From contig JAFTPG010000036.1 in assembly GCA_017463375.1 (NCBI GenBank), positions 1-42,556 on the forward strand: a stretch of 42,556 bases of DNA, read 5' to 3'. Both the position numbers and the translations under genes were made by a program. Below, piece by piece: positions 1 to 12,597 of the stretch. Origin of the DNA: Ruminococcus sp. (GTDB lineage Bacteria; Bacillota; Clostridia; Oscillospirales; Ruminococcaceae). Positions within the stretch are counted from its first letter, which is position 1; each line of letters starts with the position of its first letter. The notes beneath the pieces were generated by a model. It did no database searches and was not told the origin of the DNA. It was given only the letters and a program-made list of their open reading frames with translations.

Positions 1-1290
1 ATCATCTGCAATGGTGTGTTTGATACCTACGGCGACTGCTTTTCTGTGACTGCCGGAAGTGGTACGAAGGTGATTATCGGTACAGGAAAAGCGTGGATTG
101 ACGGGCATTATTTCATCAATGATACTGCCTATACTCTTGATTTAACGAAGTATGTGGATGAATCTTTGAGCCGTTATGTGACGATTGGCATTAGCTGTGA
201 TGTGAGCGAAAATATCCGTGCCTGCAAGCTGGAAGTGAAGTCCGGCACGGCGGCGACTTCTCCTGCAATTCCAACATTTGAGGATACGGCAAGCAAGAAG
301 TTTCTCACTCTTGCGGCAGTGTTTCTCAAGGGTGGTGCGAAGAGTATCACTGACGGCAATATCCGTGATATTCGTGAAGATGAAAAGAAGTGCGGCTATG
401 TGAAGTGTGTGCTTGGTAAATGCCGTGTTTCGGAAATGCTCGTAGCAATGGCATTTGTGACGGATAAGATGAATGAAATGGTCGGCAAAATCGACACGCT
501 CCAAAGCACTGTAGATAATCTTCAGCTGAAGGTTGACGATCTCACCGGAGACATTATTGCAACGGGTCCGCTCGGCAAGGATATTTATTATGTCCTCTAC
601 AGCAATGGCAATCTTCTTATTCGTGGCAGCGGTGAGATGTACAATTATGACATCGACAGCAACCTGTCTCCGTTCCGTGGCAACATCGACATCACCTCTG
701 TTGTGGTGAGTGAGGGAGTCACTTCCGTTGGCGATTATCTGTTTGGAAATTGTCAGAATATGAAGAAAATCAGTCTGCCGACAACGCTTACAAGCATCGG
801 TCATGCCGCGTTTATGCAGGGTGACGGCTACGTCAGCACGGTTTATGGTCTGACGGAGATTAACATTCCTTCCGGCGTAACAAGCATTGGCGGCAGTGTA
901 TTCTGGGGTTCGGCAATCAGCTCACTCGTTATTCCGGAATCCGTCAGCGAAATCGGCAAATACGCCTGCCGTGACTGTGCGGCTCTGAAAAGCGTTACCG
1001 TGGGCGGCACTGTGATCGGCGAGTATATGTTTGTCAGCTGTACAAAGCTCTCTACTTTCAACATCGGTTCAAAGCTGAAGAAGATCGGCTCGAATGTGTT
1101 CAATTACTGCTCTGCACTCAAAACCATTACCTACGATGGCACGCTTGAAAAGTGGCAGGCTATCGAAAAAGGAACTAATTGGGACGGTCGCAGTGCAATG
1201 GATGCGGCACAGTCGGGACTTGTCAAAATTCAGTGTACCGACGGCTATATGGAATATGCTGATGGTGCTTGGAGGGAGGTTATCGCATGA
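1..1290 (+). CDS. phage tail/baseplate protein with BspA-like LRRs (5' partial)
   Basis: The frame is open to the left edge, so the true start lies outside the window. The visible part has about 429 codons. The N-terminal region (GTGKAWIDGHYF) resembles baseplate or receptor-binding proteins of Firmicute siphophages. A short coiled-coil-like stretch (NEMVGKIDTLQSTVDNLQLK) follows near the middle. From about nucleotide 690 to 1180 there are BspA-like (LRR_5) leucine-rich repeats of the form TSIG..F..C..L..I.LP. The likely role is virion adsorption to the host surface. The stop overlaps the ATG of the next tail gene by 4 nt, which suggests translational coupling. The tail assignment comes from domain style plus the neighbouring tail, holin and lysin genes; the exact morphogenetic role is inferred. 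Confidence 0.75.
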   Translation: MICNGVFDTYGDCFSVTAGSGTKVIIGTGKAWIDGHYFINDTAYTLDLTKYVDESLSRYVTIGISCDVSENIRACKLEVKSGTAATSPAIPTFEDTASKKFLTLAAVFLKGGAKSITDGNIRDIREDEKKCGYVKCVLGKCRVSEMLVAMAFVTDKMNEMVGKIDTLQSTVDNLQLKVDDLTGDIIATGPLGKDIYYVLYSNGNLLIRGSGEMYNYDIDSNLSPFRGNIDITSVVVSEGVTSVGDYLFGNCQNMKKISLPTTLTSIGHAAFMQGDGYVSTVYGLTEINIPSGVTSIGGSVFWGSAISSLVIPESVSEIGKYACRDCAALKSVTVGGTVIGEYMFVSCTKLSTFNIGSKLKKIGSNVFNYCSALKTITYDGTLEKWQAIEKGTNWDGRSAMDAAQSGLVKIQCTDGYMEYADGAWREVIA

Positions 1291-4749: not shown

Positions 4750-4941
4750 ATGGAACAACAGAAAATCCTTGATGAAATCGGATACTACAAGGCACAGGCA
4801 ATCACCGAATTGCTCTATACAAAGGGATTTATTACATTTGACGAGTATGACAAATTAACGGAAATAAACCGTCGAACTTTCTCTCCCATGTATGCAGACT
4901 TATTACCGAAAACGCTTGCAAAAGCACCGAAACAGAGTTAA
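4750..4941 (+). CDS. small SHOCT-like protein of the recombinase cassette
   Basis: The protein has 63 aa. ATG 4750 is set by AGGAGGT (4739-4744) about 6 nt upstream. The sequence ITELLYTKGFITFDEYDKL has the SHOCT-domain pattern: a short amphipathic helix pair with a G-x-I-x-x-E/D-E-Y/F core. Similar small proteins commonly precede tandem serine recombinases in clostridial prophages and integrative elements, probably as oligomerisation or accessory factors. The gene ends 28 nt before the first recombinase and is presumably cotranscribed with it. The accessory role is inferred from position only. Confidence 0.65.
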   Translation: MEQQKILDEIGYYKAQAITELLYTKGFITFDEYDKLTEINRRTFSPMYADLLPKTLAKAPKQS

Positions 4942-4969
4942 TATAGCATACGAGAAAGGAGGGAATCTC

Positions 4970-6535
4970 ATGAATATCAGAAAAATCGAAGCACAAAAAC
5001 AGGAAGTGAAAAAACTCCGTGTGGCGGCGTACTGCCGTGTGTCAACGGACAATGACGATCAGAGAGACAGCCTTGAAACGCAGAAACAGCATTTTGAAGC
5101 GTGGATCAGACTGCATTCCGATTGGGAGTATGCGGGTGTGTTCTACGATTTCGGCATCACCGGAACAAAGGCAGAAGTCCGTGACGGTCTGCAGGCGCTT
5201 CTGTATGAGTGCCGTATCGGTCGTATTGATTATGTGCTTACCAAATCTGTGAGTCGATTTGCCCGAAACACAGTTGACTGCTTATCCATTGTACGAGAAC
5301 TTCTTTCCTATGGCATTCCGATTTATTTTGAGAAAGAGAATCTTGATACCGGAAGCATGGAGAGCGAGCTGATTTTGTCCATCATCAGCAGTCTGGCACA
5401 GGATGAATCGGAGTCCATCTCGAAAAACGTCAAGTGGTCTGCACAGAAGCGTATGGAGAATGGCAGTTACAAAATTGGCTGTGTTCCCTATGGCTACACG
5501 AAGAATGAACATGGGGATATGGTAATCGTACCGGAAGAAGCCGATGTGATACAGTACATCTTCAACTCGGTTGTATCCGGTATGGGCGTGTACAAAATTG
5601 CGAAGAACCTCAACGCACGACACATCCCTACAAGAAAAGGCGGTAATTGGTCACCAACCACTCTGCTGGACATTCTGGTCAATGAGAAATATGTGGGCGA
5701 TGCCCTGTTTCAAAAGACCTACACCGACAGCAATTTTCACAGGCATGACAATCATGGTGAAATGAAAATGCATCTGATGCAGGAACATCACGAGCCGATC
5801 ATCAGCAGAGAATTGTTTGAAAAGGCTGGTGCGATTCTGTCACAGAGAGTCAAAGAACGTGGTATTCAGAAAGGAACAGCAAAGTATCAACAGCGATACG
5901 CCTTTTCAGGGAGAATTATCTGTGGGCAGTGCGGCGACAAGTTCAAACGGCAAACCTACACCAGCGGCATCACATGGGCTTGCAAAACGCATCTGTTCCA
6001 TAAATCCGATTGTTCCATGAAATATATCCGTGATGATGCGGTCAAGGCGGCATTTGTCAACATGATGAACAAGCTGATTTTTGCCAGAAAGCTGATGCTT
6101 CGTCCTCTGTGTGAAGCACTTCGGATTGCAGGCAGTGATGAGAATCTGCAAAGAATCCTGCACCTGAAAGAGGAGTTGCAGCACAATGCAGAACGCAAGG
6201 ATGAATTGCGGAAATTAAGGGCAAGGGGCATTATCGACAGCGTTCTCTACAATCAGGAAGTCAGCCGCATAGAAAAGCAGAGCGATGAATTCCGTGCGGA
6301 AATCAAAGGGCTTGGAAACGCAGAGTCCGGAAGCAGTCTGAAAGAAGCGGAACGCCTACTGAAATATGTGGAATCGGCGGATATGCTTTCCGGATTCTCG
6401 GACGATCTATTCACTGATTTCGTTGAGAACATTACAGTATACGATCGAACACATATTGGTTTTCAGCTGAAATGCGGATTGACCTTAAAGGAGGAGTTAT
6501 GTACGGGTACAGAATCGAAAATGGAATCGCCGTGA
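4970..6535 (+). CDS. large serine recombinase 1 (integrase)
   Basis: The protein has 521 aa. ATG 4970 follows AAAGGAGGG at 7 nt. An N-terminal resolvase/invertase domain carries YCRVST with catalytic Ser25, plus [10 protein letters not shown] and SLAQDESESIS. The recombinase domain (about residues 165-300) contains GYTKNEHGDMVI, a KYVGDALFQKTYT segment and HHEPIISRELF. A zinc ribbon (CGQCG, then paired Cys near residues 342-353) and a long C-terminal coiled coil follow. This is the standard architecture of phage and transposon integrases that recombine attP with attB. Its 3' end overlaps the next gene by 37 nt. A second full recombinase follows, so it may act jointly or as one of two alternatives. 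Confidence 0.93.
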   Translation: MNIRKIEAQKQEVKKLRVAAYCRVSTDNDDQRDSLETQKQHFEAWIRLHSDWEYAGVFYDFGITGTKAEVRDGLQALLYECRIGRIDYVLTKSVSRFARNTVDCLSIVRELLSYGIPIYFEKENLDTGSMESELILSIISSLAQDESESISKNVKWSAQKRMENGSYKIGCVPYGYTKNEHGDMVIVPEEADVIQYIFNSVVSGMGVYKIAKNLNARHIPTRKGGNWSPTTLLDILVNEKYVGDALFQKTYTDSNFHRHDNHGEMKMHLMQEHHEPIISRELFEKAGAILSQRVKERGIQKGTAKYQQRYAFSGRIICGQCGDKFKRQTYTSGITWACKTHLFHKSDCSMKYIRDDAVKAAFVNMMNKLIFARKLMLRPLCEALRIAGSDENLQRILHLKEELQHNAERKDELRKLRARGIIDSVLYNQEVSRIEKQSDEFRAEIKGLGNAESGSSLKEAERLLKYVESADMLSGFSDDLFTDFVENITVYDRTHIGFQLKCGLTLKEELCTGTESKMESP

Positions 6536-6891
6536 TTGATGAACAAGAAGCGGCGGTGATTATCGGCATTTTCAATGGCTATCTCTCCGGCATGAGCCTG
6601 ACTGCCGCCGCCGAGAACGCCGGAAAGCCAATGGTTCACAGCCGTGTGAAGAACATCATCAAAAGAACCTGTTATGTGGGCGATGATTTTTATCCTGCAA
6701 TCGTGAGTAAGCAGACATTTGCGAGAGCCAATGCAGAACTGATCCGCCGTGCCAACAAGCATTGCAGGGGCAGCAAAAGAAAAACACCGCCGATTTTCAA
6801 GGAGTTTACACTCTCCGTTCCGGCGATGCAGTTTGAAGACCCGATAAGGCAAGCAGAATATATTTACAGTTTGATAGAGGTGAGAAAATGA
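6499..6891 (+). CDS. recombinase-domain-only protein lacking the serine catalytic domain
   Basis: The protein has 130 aa. ATG 6499 follows AAAGGAGG inside the previous gene. Residues ~1-90 align with the central recombinase domain of the two neighbours: [16 protein letters not shown] against GYTKNEHGDMVIVPEE, CYVGDDF against KYVGDAL, and [11 protein letters not shown] against PIISRELFEKA. The N-terminal Ser domain and the zinc ribbon are absent. The frame is intact, it overlaps both neighbours (37 nt before, 4 nt after) and has its own ribosome site, so it is not a decayed remnant. A DNA-binding helper or directionality role is inferred. I recall similar three-gene recombinase cassettes in clostridial mobile elements, but cannot verify this here. 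Confidence 0.8.
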
Positions 6892-8441
6892 ATGTAATAA
6901 CCATTCCGGCAAAGCCGCAAAAGGGTAACAATGCCGCAAAGGTGGAAGTGAAAAAACTCCGAGTAGCGGCGTACTGCCGTGTCTCCACCGACAATGAGGA
7001 GCAGGCAACCAGCTACGAGGCACAGATTGCCCATTACAGAGAGTTCATCAGTTCCAATCCCGACTGGGTGCTTGTGGATGTGTACGCCGATGATGGAATC
7101 AGTGCAACGTCTACCAAGAACCGTGAGGAGTTCAACAGGATGATCGAGGACTGCAAACAAGGAAAAATCGACATGATCTTTACAAAGTCCATCAGCCGTT
7201 TTGCCCGAAATACCGTGGATTGTCTGAACTACATCCGTGAACTGAAAGCAATGAACATTCCAGTATTCTTCGAGAAAGAATCCATCAACACCATGGATGC
7301 CAAGGGTGAAGTCATGCTCACGATCATGGCTTCGCTTGCACAGCAGGAGTCGGAGTCCTTAAGTCAGAACGTGAAGCTGGGTTTGCAGTATGGCTTTCAA
7401 CAGGGCAAGGTCATGGTGAACGCACGGCTGTTTCTTGGGTATGACAAGGATGCGGAAGGTAATCTCGTCATCAATCCGGAACAGGCGGAAATTGTCAAGC
7501 GAATCTTCCGTGAGTACCTTGAGGGCGCAAGCTGCAAGAAGATCGGCAGAGGGCTGGAACGTGACGGCATTCTGACCGTCCGTGGCAGCAGCCGATGGCA
7601 TGACAGTACGATACGAAAGATCCTTGAAAATGAAAAGTACATGGGTGATGTGTTGCTGCAAAAGACCTATACTGTGGACTTTCTCCGCAAAAAGCGAGTA
7701 GTGAATAACGGCGTGATGCCGCAGTACTACATCGAGGGACACCATGAGCCAATCATTCCGAAAGAACTCTTTCTGAAAGTACAGGAAGAAATCGCAAGGC
7801 GTGGTTCGGAGCGTGATTGTCTGGGCAAGAAGCGTGGGTTCAGTTCCAACCATTGCTTTTCACAGATGGTGTACTGTGCCGAGTGCGGTGAGCAGTACCG
7901 CCGAATTCACTGGAATAATCGTGGCAAGAAATCCATCGTATGGCGATGCACCACCCGACTGCATGACAAAGAAAAGTGCCGTGCGAGGACGGTCAGCGAG
8001 ACATTGCTGCAGGAAGCATTTCTGGATGCAGTCAATGAAATGCTTGGGGACAGTCAGGTTTATCTGAAACGGCTGAAGGAGAACCTCGAAACCGCCATTC
8101 ACCTGACAAATCCCGATTCGGCAGAAGCACTTGCTGCAAGGATGGCGGCATTGCAGCAGGAACTGATTGACCGCACCAGCCGCCGTGAGAATTATGACGA
8201 CCTTGCGGAAGAAATCCTCCGCCTACGAGAGGTGCAGGCACAGACGGTGATGGATGCTGCTACCAAAGCCGAACACAAGAAACGCATTCGGGAGCTTCGG
8301 GCATTTATCCGTTCCCAGCCGCATGGCATCACGGAGTTTGATGAGACGCTGGTGAAGCACTTGGTGGAGAGGGTGACGGTGTTTGGGGATTATTTGGTGT
8401 TTCGGTTTCGGTCGGGGGTGGAGGTTGTGGTGGAGAAGTGA
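6888..8441 (+). CDS. large serine recombinase 2 (integrase)
   Basis: The protein has 517 aa and its ATG overlaps the preceding TGA (ATGA). The resolvase domain has YCRVST with catalytic Ser33, [19 protein letters not shown] and [11 protein letters not shown]. The recombinase domain (about residues 175-305) includes [25 protein letters not shown] and [11 protein letters not shown]. The zinc ribbon begins YCAECGEQY and is completed by Cys residues around MRC-type WRC and KEKC. A coiled coil and a short beta tail follow. It is clearly paralogous to recombinase 1 but not a recent duplicate. Its stop is the last plus-strand coding position of the element, 80 nt from the convergent NTPase gene. Confidence 0.93.
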
Positions 8442-8521: not shown

Positions 8522-10309
8522 TTAGTTTTCAAAAAATATATCTAAAAGATTTGCTCCGACAAAAGACGCATTCACTAAAGACGTTTTTAAAAGCGATACA
8601 CCGTTTAAATTTGCATTATTAAAAATAGTCTCAATGCCATTAGTAAATGATAAATCTGAATTCAGCAAGTTAGCATTTTCAAAATTAACTGAATCTAAAT
8701 TACAATATTTAAGATTTGAGTATGCTATGTTTGCTTTAGATAGATTTGCACTACTTAAAAAAGCACCTTGTAAATCAACTTCATATAAATTAGCTTGATA
8801 CAAATTAGCACAACTTAAATTTGCATTTTTTAACACGGCACTTTTCAAATTTGAAGATTTTAAAGAAACTGAAGATAGGTCGCAGTATGAAAAACAGCAT
8901 CCAATTAAATTACAATTTTCAAATTTTGTACCCTTTAAATTCATGTTTGAAAAATCAAAATATGATAAATCTAGCCCAGAAAAATCAAGACTCGGATAAC
9001 TGCTGTATGCTTGATATATATTAAAACAATATTTAAAATGTTCATTGAATATCTTCGATTGAAAAGCATTCTCTTTACTGAAAAACATTTTAGCTAGATC
9101 TATATAAATATATGCTATATTATACCATAACTGCATTGAACTCATGAAATTCAATCTCGAAAGAATAGGTGAGGATATACATGCGTCAGTTTGGCATCTG
9201 TAAAAACTCTGAAGCATTGTTTCTAATAGACCAAAAATATTTTGTCTTGTTTCTTTATTGTATTCTTCGAACACATATGAAAGGTATCTGTTTCCATGAA
9301 TTACGCCTTCTGAAAGAAAAAAAAGCATTCGTTTTTCATTGTCAATTTCATTATTTTTCAGATAAGACATCATCAATTCATAAACAAATTTCGCTTCAAA
9401 ATATTCCTGCAGTGATTTATGAGAAAAAAAGAGTGTTTCCTGATTGTCTGAGCACTTTATAAATAAAAGTTGGTTTTTATTTTTTAAATATTTATTTTTC
9501 TCAACAAACAACGTCCTATAACAAAACATCTCTCCCGCTATTTTTGTATATAGTTTTTTTTCATCTTCATCAATGTTGGAAAGTAGTACATCAAACAGCC
9601 TTTGTACACCTCTATAAATTATATCAGGATTTTTTGTGACAAGCGAAAGAACAACAGGATTTCTAAGTGCGGATACATCACTATTTAAAATAAACTCCAC
9701 TATTTTTTCTTGTTCGAAATTCACAGTTTTTTCAATAAAACACTGAATTTGCTCATCTGAAAAAGGCAAAACTTCAAATATTGGGAATTTTGTACTTTGT
9801 TTGTTATCGACTAGATCTGTGCGAGCTGTGAATATAATGGAAATATTATCACAAATTTGATTGTGCTCATCTAAGCAATTGTACAGTGAATCAACATCTA
9901 ATCTGAATCCATTATCTTCAAAAATGATAACTGTCTTACAATCTTTAAAATCAGTTTTATTATTAATTACGTTTTTAACTGTTGAAAGAACCTTATCCAT
10001 CGAATCTAAAAATCGAAATACATATACTTTGATTTTTAATATTTCTTCATTGTACACTAAAAATGAAACAATAGAAGATTTTCCGGATCCCGCTTCACCA
10101 ACTAAAAGACAAAACCTCAGCTCATTTGATACAACATAATCTTTAAATTGATTAAATGTTGTGTTATGACCGTTTTTGAGAAAAGGAGGAGGAACGAAAA
10201 CATCCTTAAGCCGAATTGCAATTTCGTTATTGCTAAACCATAAAACTTCATTCCATTTTTTTATATAGTGATCATTAAAAGAATGAAACAACGCATTACA
10301 ACGATCCAT
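8522..10309 (-). CDS. NACHT/STAND NTPase with C-terminal pentapeptide repeats
   Basis: The protein has 595 aa. Walker A GEAGSGKSS is at residues 71-79, Walker B-like TVIIFEDNG at ~126-134 and a sensor arginine in IIFTART at ~158-164. An LPFSDEQIQCFI segment at ~181-192, NPVVLSLV at ~217-224 and FSHKSLQEYFEA at ~295-306 are typical of the NACHT winged-helix region. Residues ~441-593 are pentapeptide repeats (A(D/N)LxxANL style), forming a quadrilateral beta-helix that would serve as the ligand or target-sensing end. AGGAGGT lies 11 nt before the start, inside the upstream partner gene, and the two genes overlap by 14 nt. The gene is markedly AT-rich against its neighbours. STAND NTPases of this plan act in antiphage defence or signalling; that function is inferred. 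Confidence 0.85.
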   Translation of the reverse strand: MDRCNALFHSFNDHYIKKWNEVLWFSNNEIAIRLKDVFVPPPFLKNGHNTTFNQFKDYVVSNELRFCLLVGEAGSGKSSIVSFLVYNEEILKIKVYVFRFLDSMDKVLSTVKNVINNKTDFKDCKTVIIFEDNGFRLDVDSLYNCLDEHNQICDNISIIFTARTDLVDNKQSTKFPIFEVLPFSDEQIQCFIEKTVNFEQEKIVEFILNSDVSALRNPVVLSLVTKNPDIIYRGVQRLFDVLLSNIDEDEKKLYTKIAGEMFCYRTLFVEKNKYLKNKNQLLFIKCSDNQETLFFSHKSLQEYFEAKFVYELMMSYLKNNEIDNEKRMLFFLSEGVIHGNRYLSYVFEEYNKETRQNIFGLLETMLQSFYRCQTDACISSPILSRLNFMSSMQLWYNIAYIYIDLAKMFFSKENAFQSKIFNEHFKYCFNIYQAYSSYPSLDFSGLDLSYFDFSNMNLKGTKFENCNLIGCCFSYCDLSSVSLKSSNLKSAVLKNANLSCANLYQANLYEVDLQGAFLSSANLSKANIAYSNLKYCNLDSVNFENANLLNSDLSFTNGIETIFNNANLNGVSLLKTSLVNASFVGANLLDIFFEN

Positions 10310-11027
10310 AATTATCGCCTACCTCCTGAAAAATCTCAACAGTATCATTGAGTATTGTTAAACCATTAGTCAGTGTGGGATCTTTTTTACATTGAACCCA
10401 ATCGTCATGTCGCTTAGAACTGTTTACAAATTTATTAAACTGTTCTTGCAGAAGCTTTAACCCTTCCGCATTTTCTTTGAGTTGTTCGCTAATTGAATGA
10501 GTGCCTTCTGAAATCTTTTTACTTATTGACAACTCACTCTCTCGAATATCTTTTTTTATATCAAAAAGTACTTCAAAAAGAAAATCGCTATTTTTTTGAA
10601 TTGTATCGATCGATTTAGATATAATCGGAAACAATGCTTTTCGAACGTCCTGTTTAGCTTCTTCTTCAACAACACCCACACTTTCTTCAAGAGAAGATAT
10701 CAGTATTTCTACTATTCTGGTAGCATCGCAATTATTGTCTTTAAGCATATCTTTGCTAATTTTAGTATGTTGTAATAGAGTTTTGGTATTTTCACGTGCT
10801 GGTTCTATTCTATGAGATGGAATACCGATCTTGCTTAGTTGTGCATCCGATAATAGACTATCGATTTCATTTTTGGAGGAAGAAACTATATCAATTATCT
10901 TTTCACCGGCTTCATCTCCAAATTCTGAGATAATGTCATTAATAAATTCATGAAGGCTGTAGCTTTTTCCATAGTTTGATATTCCAAGTTTTGCTAAAAA
11001 AAGCACTACAGCAACAGGAAAATTCAT
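10296..11027 (-). CDS. coiled-coil partner protein of the NACHT NTPase, unknown function
   Basis: The protein has 243 aa. The start ATG is preceded by AAAGGAT at about 9 nt. The first ~20 residues are hydrophobic (FPVAVVLFLAKLG) but could be a buried helix and not a membrane anchor. The rest is predicted mostly helical, with heptad-rich stretches around residues 115-150 and 160-210 (KDIRESELSISKKISEG). I do not recognise a family. It is the first gene of a two-gene operon and overlaps the NTPase by 14 nt. In many bacterial NACHT proteins an N-terminal helical or effector domain is fused to the NTPase, so this may be that domain carried on a separate chain. A regulator or toxin-like effector is equally possible. 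Confidence 0.7.
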   Translation of the reverse strand: MNFPVAVVLFLAKLGISNYGKSYSLHEFINDIISEFGDEAGEKIIDIVSSSKNEIDSLLSDAQLSKIGIPSHRIEPARENTKTLLQHTKISKDMLKDNNCDATRIVEILISSLEESVGVVEEEAKQDVRKALFPIISKSIDTIQKNSDFLFEVLFDIKKDIRESELSISKKISEGTHSISEQLKENAEGLKLLQEQFNKFVNSSKRHDDWVQCKKDPTLTNGLTILNDTVEIFQEVGDNYGSL

Positions 11028-11238: not shown

Positions 11239-12597
11239 TTACGCCTTATCCCTCGACATCAAAACCACGCACTCAACGTGCCCCGTCCTAGGAAACAAAT
11301 CGACGCCGCAGACCTTAACGATGGAGTAGCCATTTTCGGAAAGCCACTTAGCGTCACGAGCAGCGGTTGCAGGATTACAGGAAATCATCACGATTTTCCT
11401 TGGTGCAGCATCAGCGATAGTATTGAGAGAATCGAGGGAGCATCCTTTTCTTGGCGGATCAACAACAATAATGTCAGGAGCGCATCCGTTCTGTCTCAGT
11501 TGAGAGAAAACTGCTCCGGCGTCTCCGCAGAAGAAATCCGCATTATCAATGTTATTCTGAGCGGCGTTTATTCTGGCATTATCAATTGCCTGCGGAACTA
11601 TCTCTACTCCGACAATTTTTTCTGCGCTTTTCGCCATAGAGAGTCCTATAGTACCGGCACCGCAGTAGAGGTCAGCGATAACATCAGATTTTCCCGGTTC
11701 AGCGTACTCAAGAGCTTTTGCATAAAGACGTTCAGCCTGAACCGTATTAACCTGATAGAAGGATAGGGGAGATATCTCAATAGAATTTCCGCACATAGTA
11801 TCGGTAATAGTATCTTTTCCGGCAAGAGTAACGCATTTTTTTCCAAGAATGACATTAGTCTTATCGGGATTTATATTCATAATGATGCTGACTATATTTG
11901 AAAATTTCCGCATAAGAATACTGCACAGCGGCATGAGCTGACGAGACATGTCTTTACGAACCACAAGGCATACCATTATTTCGCCCGAATGAGCGCCCTT
12001 TCTCAGATATATATGACGCATTAAACCGGTGTTTGATTCCTCGGAATATACAGAAAGCTTCCTCTCATTGATGTAAGCGAGTATGCATGAAGCTATCTCG
12101 GAAAAAATTTCCGGCTGCAAAGCGCAATCCTTTATCGGAATCAATCTATGGCTTCGTGGAGCATAGAAACCGTATACAGCATTACCATTAATTGAAGCAA
12201 GCGGATACTGCGCCTTATTTCTGTAGCGTGAAACAGCTTCGCATCCCACAAACTCCTCAAAAACCGGATCAAGCCCGCCTATTCGTTTAAAAGCACTTTT
12301 TACAATATTATCCTTGATGCGGCACTCAGCCTGATAGGAGATATGTCTGAAAGTGCATCCGCCGCATTTTTTTGCAGCGTCACAGTCTGAATCAATTCTG
12401 TCCGGAGAAGGGGAGATGATCTCCTCAGCGATACCGAAAGCATAGCTTTTCAGTACCTTTACAATTTTAAGCTTAATGACATCACCAACCGCAGTACCGG
12501 GAACGAAAACCGCCGCATTTTCAACTCTGCAAACGCCGTTTCCTTCAGCAGTGAGGTCGATTACTTCAGCAGTGAAGCATTGATTTTTTTCAAGCAT
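11239..12597 (-). CDS. rlmD: 23S rRNA (uracil-C5)-methyltransferase RlmD/RumA
   Basis: The protein has 452 aa. An N-terminal TRAM domain (FTAEVIDLTAEGNGVCR) covers residues ~5-60. Cys72, Cys78 and Cys81 (KKCGGC) plus a later Cys form the 4Fe-4S site. The SAM-dependent methyltransferase domain has DLYCGAGTIGL, VDPPRKGC and ISCNPATAARD, the last carrying the catalytic loop and motif. It methylates U1939-type uridine in 23S rRNA; in Firmicutes one enzyme may modify two sites. It overlaps hemZ by 37 nt and ends the relA-MBL-hemZ operon. Its 3' end abuts the accessory region, and the HVECVVLMSR tail is a plausible recombinase target. Family assignment is firm, site specificity is not. Confidence 0.92.
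   Translation of the reverse strand: MLEKNQCFTAEVIDLTAEGNGVCRVENAAVFVPGTAVGDVIKLKIVKVLKSYAFGIAEEIISPSPDRIDSDCDAAKKCGGCTFRHISYQAECRIKDNIVKSAFKRIGGLDPVFEEFVGCEAVSRYRNKAQYPLASINGNAVYGFYAPRSHRLIPIKDCALQPEIFSEIASCILAYINERKLSVYSEESNTGLMRHIYLRKGAHSGEIMVCLVVRKDMSRQLMPLCSILMRKFSNIVSIIMNINPDKTNVILGKKCVTLAGKDTITDTMCGNSIEISPLSFYQVNTVQAERLYAKALEYAEPGKSDVIADLYCGAGTIGLSMAKSAEKIVGVEIVPQAIDNARINAAQNNIDNADFFCGDAGAVFSQLRQNGCAPDIIVVDPPRKGCSLDSLNTIADAAPRKIVMISCNPATAARDAKWLSENGYSIVKVCGVDLFPRTGHVECVVLMSRDKA

Follow-up and report, generated by a model that had tools for sequence, protein, structure and literature searches.

A split NACHT–pentapeptide gene pair behind rlmD in Ruminococcus sp., a candidate two-chain form of a usually single-chain STAND protein

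Within a 42,556-nucleotide stretch of DNA from Ruminococcus sp. (contig JAFTPG010000036.1 of assembly GCA_017463375.1; hereafter the window, which is contig C87 of a draft genome of 2.28 Mb in 132 contigs), two minus-strand open reading frames (ORFs), P0001 (243 residues) and P0002 (595 residues), overlap by 14 nucleotides in different frames. Our preferred reading, which we hold to be reasonably probable, is that the two ORFs encode, as two chains, a NACHT–pentapeptide STAND protein of a kind normally made as one, that they probably belong to the cargo of a prophage that integrated at rlmD, and that their products probably act as an antiphage (superinfection-exclusion) sensor. The pair is a new form of a known kind, the bacterial NACHT/STAND proteins, and appears to be a split member of a mostly single-chain family, since an N-terminal module (N-module) is fused ahead of the NACHT part in 11 of 13 relatives. 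An earlier note on this DNA had described the two overlapping genes and, in the second protein, a Walker A motif, an HKSLQEYFEA motif and about 150 residues of C-terminal pentapeptide repeats, all of which were confirmed (Table 1). It missed the degenerate Walker B region and the prophage/rlmD setting.

The pair and its single-chain relatives

All 13 relatives combine NACHT with pentapeptide repeats. The pentapeptide model matched well in every one of them, and the NACHT model matched all 13, seven above its cut-off. In L118, L119, L134-L140, L143 and L165, a single chain runs from a fused N-module (183-283 residues in ten relatives, about 222 in L165, counted from its likely start) through a common junction motif, the NACHT region and the H-arm to a pentapeptide tail. 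P0002 has the junction motif, the H-arm and the C-terminal pentapeptides as in the family, its start lying 13 residues ahead of the junction motif; the N-module is not in its chain. Two comparisons connect it to this family: (i) The first 440 residues of P0002 score 47.4 bits against a profile made from 11 relatives, P0002 excluded, and the best of 73 motif-scan proteins reaches 34.8 bits against the same profile. (ii) In a phylogenetic tree that includes four other proteins bearing NACHT-like motifs, P0002 falls on the side of the family and apart from those four (support 96/90), on the longest branch of the tree (3.46), a kind of branch on which the tree program issues a warning. P0002 itself lies below the curated cut-off of the Pfam NACHT model PF05729 (17.7 vs 26.7 bits). 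Judged by sequence, P0002 is homologous to the NACHT–pentapeptide family, and the earlier assignment of the NTPase to the NACHT/STAND type holds.

P0001 is most likely the N-module of such a protein made as a separate chain, as had been proposed, because its residues 15-195 match the fused N-module of L165 (24.3 bits; none of 1000 shuffles as good). When the L165 N-module was used as the query against 1139 ORFs, P0001 was the sole match besides the query itself (E 1.4e-6), and the alignment of the two holds 40 identities over 199 columns. Comparison of P0001 with the N-modules of L143 and L139 gave no secure similarity. No convincing match to P0001 was found in four profile libraries and no catalytic motif was seen by inspection; its N-terminus carries a short hydrophobic stretch.

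The earlier note had inferred that beta-helical repeats here replace LRR/TPR-type sensors. Such repeats are not particular to this locus, since C-terminal pentapeptides are present in all 13 relatives and also in L054, a NACHT-like protein outside the family (by motif and reading). PADLOC 2023 gave no convincing match to a named defence family (best E 0.0018 for a short P-loop stretch of P0002, and 0.085 for P0001). The note's further suggestion of a pairing that forms a system of its own is not supported, the module being fused in most relatives. In that sense homologues of the NTPase do occur without a separate partner, an outcome that the note itself had named as counting against its reading. 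The family likewise received no name in PADLOC scans of two members and NCBIfam scans of five.

The 13 relatives comprise ten full-length proteins in eight genomes of the same genus (L117, L118, L119, L134, L135, L136, L137, L138, L139, L140), one in a genome of the same family (L163) and two in viral contigs (L143, found again as L164, and L165). A four-row alignment matched 10 of 124 other genus genomes, eight with the full-length proteins and two with fragments (L141, L142), and a 12-row alignment at E 1e-20 matched 1 of 181 other genomes in the family draw (L163). Outside the count of 13 are the two fragments, three more distant proteins from viral contigs (L166-L168), and a weak match of the four-row alignment in 1 of 195 other genomes of the class draw (L133, genome G187). 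Alignment searches of phages and plasmids found no NACHT–pentapeptide relative, and a last scan of viral contigs found nothing.

Single-sequence searches with P0001 found no match in 98 relatives, in 397 others of the phylum draw, or in viral contigs, plasmids or phages. Residues 1-440 of P0002, used in the same way, gave three distant matches among the 124 other genus genomes, no confirmed relative in 390 other class-draw and 393 order-draw genomes, no relative in genome contigs and no match in plasmids or phages; whole P0002 had no relative in viral contigs. Searches with P0002 returned two weak matches in the class (L003, L004) and, at E up to 0.01, four in the order (L005-L008). L004, L006 and L008 were rejected as MnmG, SecA and FtsE, and L003, which matches no NCBIfam model at 1e-20, was rejected as another AAA protein by reading. 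Against plasmids, full-length P0002 gave 188 records, none with one place covering 80% of the query, and among the 60 listed nearly all named features are pentapeptide-repeat proteins. A scan for the motif HK[ST]xQEYFxA found 75 loci (9 viral, 66 genomic), from which 930 ORFs yielded only L074 as collinearly like P0002.

Table 1 Coordinates of the pair, its motifs and the flanking genes in the window.
Feature	Position	Strand	Basis
P0001, most likely N-terminal module as separate chain, 243 residues	10296..11027	-	ORF call; match to N-module of fused relative L165
P0002, NACHT-type NTPase with C-terminal pentapeptide repeats, 595 residues	8522..10309	-	ORF; domain scan; 47.4-bit relatives' profile
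P0001/P0002 ORF overlap, 14 nucleotides	10296..10309	-	ORF call
AGGAGG, Shine-Dalgarno-like, 12 nucleotides before P0002 ATG	10322..10327	-	sole copy in the pair's coding strand
Junction motif YIKKWNEVLWF...IRLKDVFVPP, joining N-module and NACHT in relatives	10184..10270	-	alignment; inside 39.2-bit domain
Walker A GEAGSGKSS	10073..10099	-	motif; glycines and lysine invariant in alignment with relatives
Walker B region VIIFEDNGFR, without DGxDE	9902..9931	-	alignment with 13 relatives
HKSLQEYFEA arm motif	9392..9421	-	motif and alignment
Pentapeptide repeats, about residues 443-590, about 150 residues	8540..8983	-	Pfam-type scan
Serine recombinase: resolvase, recombinase and zinc-ribbon domains	4892..6535	+	domain scan
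Short recombinase-domain ORF	6472..6891	+	domain scan
Serine recombinase; distant relatives include those of '_rum' prophages	6888..8441	+	domain scan; DNA match
rlmD (rumA), host gene, 3' end flanks the pair	11239..12597	-	TIGR00479, 397.7 bits, cut-off 183.55

Recombinases and the 3' end of rlmD

The pair is flanked on its left by an amidase gene and three serine-recombinase ORFs and on its right by rlmD, for which 71 of 80 genus genomes, its own among them, have a match at E ≤ 1e-100. G+C content is 29.7% in the pair, 48.1% in the phage part and 43.1% in the host part. Prophages and other elements are described as inserting at the 3' end of rum in streptococci, among them the Phi-m46.1 group (PMC5053989). 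In phi-SsuHCJ3_rum, adjacent recombinases are followed by cargo genes, a placement like that of the pair, although the cargo described for the Phi-m46.1-group and phi-Ssu..._rum elements is metal or drug resistance, unlike the pair. For the recombinase stretch of the window, 84 phage records hold distantly matching DNA; five of the 20 listed are named '_rum', with 64.6-67.4% identity over 12-25% of the query.

At the rlmD 3' end (window 11239-11281; L085-L113), the following gene varies across the genus: among the 29 best-matching genus relatives an ORF lies behind rlmD in 24, and by eye this first ORF differs nearly everywhere, being serine-recombinase-like in L101. Such variation is as expected for an integration hotspot. 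The genes behind the recombinases are varied as well in the longer viral contigs that hold recombinase relatives. The case for integration at rlmD has its limits: phages of other names match the recombinase stretch better than the '_rum' phages do, likeness of serine recombinases does not prove that they share a target, and the 22-mer at the rlmD 3' end, searched with up to three mismatches for a second attachment (att) site, occurs only once in the draft genome. Because the second att site was not found, it is no more than probable that the pair is cargo of a prophage integrated at rlmD.

The pair could instead stand on its own, apart from any prophage cargo, in the variable region that follows rlmD, a substantial possibility that we place short of an even chance. 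The single copy of the 22-mer, the changing gene after rlmD and the difference in G+C between pair and phage part would all suit such a pair, as would the fact that integrases often sit at the very end of an element. Against it, the pair has the recombinases on one side and the 3' end of rlmD on the other, and in phi-SsuHCJ3_rum, too, cargo genes come after the recombinases.

Elsewhere on the phage side, the second half of an ORF at window 16-1290 (plus strand) reads like a BspA-type leucine-rich repeat, and in viral contig L146 a similar-looking gene follows the recombinase.

The junction and the altered Walker B region

The split into two ORFs looks real. A TAG three codons ahead of the P0002 ATG closes the P0002 frame, which places the start of the chain at this ATG or close to it, and the pair's only AGGAGG, 12 nucleotides before it, favours a real second start over a frameshift; in dinucleotide shuffles, AGGAGG fell within 20 nucleotides upstream of the ATG point in 2 of 2000. 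Even so, the two ORFs may in truth be one fused gene, broken here by a frameshift that arose through an assembly error or a recent mutation. Both frames are stop-free across about 20 nucleotides at the junction, so an indel could separate the two ORFs, and this keeps the frameshift a rival to a genuine split; the genome is a 132-contig draft, the N-module is fused in most relatives, and L117 has an in-frame stop in its N-module. Given the start signal and an overlap with no run of five equal bases, though with one TTTTT just upstream, we consider a frameshift unlikely. A ribosomal frameshift joining P0001 and P0002 was rejected, no slippery heptamer being seen by eye at the junction. Promoter- and terminator-like sites are about as many as in shuffled sequence.

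In the position of Walker B, all 13 relatives have hhhhDGxDE (a form taken from the relatives themselves), and P0002 has VIIFEDNGF instead. Because DGxDE is missing, P0002 may bind nucleoside triphosphate (NTP) yet hydrolyse it poorly. The stretch between Walker A and the H-arm is also short, 226 residues vs 267-329 in the relatives. Together with the long tree branch, these differences could mean that the pair is a decaying copy, a functionless remnant in which NTPase activity and a portion of the NACHT module are gone. Both long ORFs, however, are intact in AT-rich DNA, and Walker A, TAR at the sensor position, the H-arm, the repeats and the start signal are all kept, which makes decay improbable. 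A P0001 with no relation to the NACHT protein, such as a toxin or antitoxin that overlaps it by chance, is very unlikely: most N-module types lack secure similarity to P0001, and a low-identity match of two helix-like sequences calls for caution, but no shuffle equalled the match that P0001 makes to the L165 N-module over residues 15-195.

Family diversity, known systems and a possible mechanism

The fused N-modules fall by phmmer into kinds without clear mutual likeness: L119/L135/L137/L138/L140, L118/L134, L143/L139, L136 and L165. The first kind opens with a cysteine-rich, zinc-ribbon-like stretch (by reading, with one sub-threshold Pfam hit in L140). Two of the 13 relatives fall outside these kinds. 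The N-module of L163 cannot be judged because its contig ends about 80 nucleotides upstream of the gene. In L117, from genome G1221, one in-frame TAA interrupts the N-module region by eye (L117:8647-9162, minus strand), and this member is either broken or likewise made in two pieces. Beyond the 13, L142 runs off its contig; its N-module and the beginning of its NACHT part share one reading frame. L167 also looks like a single-chain NACHT–pentapeptide protein. C-terminal ends vary too: in the viral contig of L143, pentapeptide-like sequence continues as a separate 236-residue ORF after the end of the NACHT chain (L143:6921-7631), and the G048 relative (L138:4322-7666, minus strand) has about 110 extra C-terminal residues beyond the end of the other chains.

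Genes of restriction or other defence type occur close to 5 of the 13 relatives, a raw count not set against a background rate. An hsdR-like gene ends 69 nucleotides before L143, with an hsdS-like gene further upstream; L117 has pieces of hsdM and hsdS at a distance of about 1 kb; L118 has a KAP NTPase beside it; an MkoC/MkoA-like helicase lies 89 nucleotides upstream of L134, whose second neighbour is a weak HipA match; and an nSTAND3 protein is near L137. The Pfam scan covered 11 chosen neighbour proteins, from relatives other than L119, L136, L140, L163 and L165. In the same scan the neighbour of L139 was a transposase, that of L138 a nucleotidyltransferase-like protein, and the large neighbour of L135 had no Pfam match. 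Downstream of two different family members, the genes at L118:2934-4474 and L117:3347-4777 are alike over their first 90-100 residues and adjoin a transposase-like ORF; the L118 gene, which was scanned, has no Pfam family. They are perhaps a shared mobile unit.

Phage defence has been shown for several bacterial NACHT (bNACHT) proteins, which have in common with P0002 the STAND/NACHT core; those described end in SNaCT or NCH1 domains, and in some of them a nuclease effector is fused at the N-terminus (PMC12169576). P0001/P0002 differ from them in the pentapeptide repeats, the separate N-module and the missing DGxDE. Nearest to the pair are the single-chain relatives, of which L165 also has the N-module type of P0001; they differ in being one chain, with intact DGxDE and a longer NACHT region. 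In a CARD-NLR-like three-gene system (PMC13236601), and in the CARD-NLR systems described there (LypABC; Lysobacter), an NLR-like ATPase has separate partner genes, as here. The partners described are a peptidase and, in Lysobacter, a gasdermin, and the likeness drawn here is one of gene arrangement. A scaffold role for pentapeptide repeats in NTPase conflict systems has been described, as have STAND NTPases that carry added modules (PMC7159879, PMC8195603). No description of a split NACHT–pentapeptide pair was found in the titles, abstract openings and passages of the papers listed.

By analogy with these proteins, the pair may be a phage-defence module. P0001 and P0002 would be made from one message, and P0001 would bind P0002 at the point where the fused relatives run on as one chain. 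Sensing of a phage product would fall to the pentapeptide beta-helix, NTP binding and oligomerisation to the NACHT part. P0001, activated by this clustering, would signal or execute, perhaps through the short hydrophobic stretch at its N-terminus or with the help of a recruited partner. With DGxDE missing and hydrolysis perhaps poor, the switch in P0002 may be set by NTP binding. Sensing, clustering and killing are carried over here from the NACHT class; what is observed is the anatomy. A more specific form of this proposal is that the pair is a prophage-borne two-subunit NLR-like receptor, in which a co-translated subunit supplies the N-module in trans and the DGxDE-less NACHT part works by NTP binding, not hydrolysis. 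We offer it tentatively and regard it, taken whole, as somewhat unlikely.

If true, the pair would represent a split receptor, open to recombination of its parts subunit by subunit. The pair points to a NACHT–pentapeptide family, found here mostly in one genus, with differing N-modules and with defence-type genes near several members. A natural separation of sensor and switch from the signalling module would make the role of each half directly testable, and a copy without DGxDE would test whether NTP hydrolysis is needed at all.
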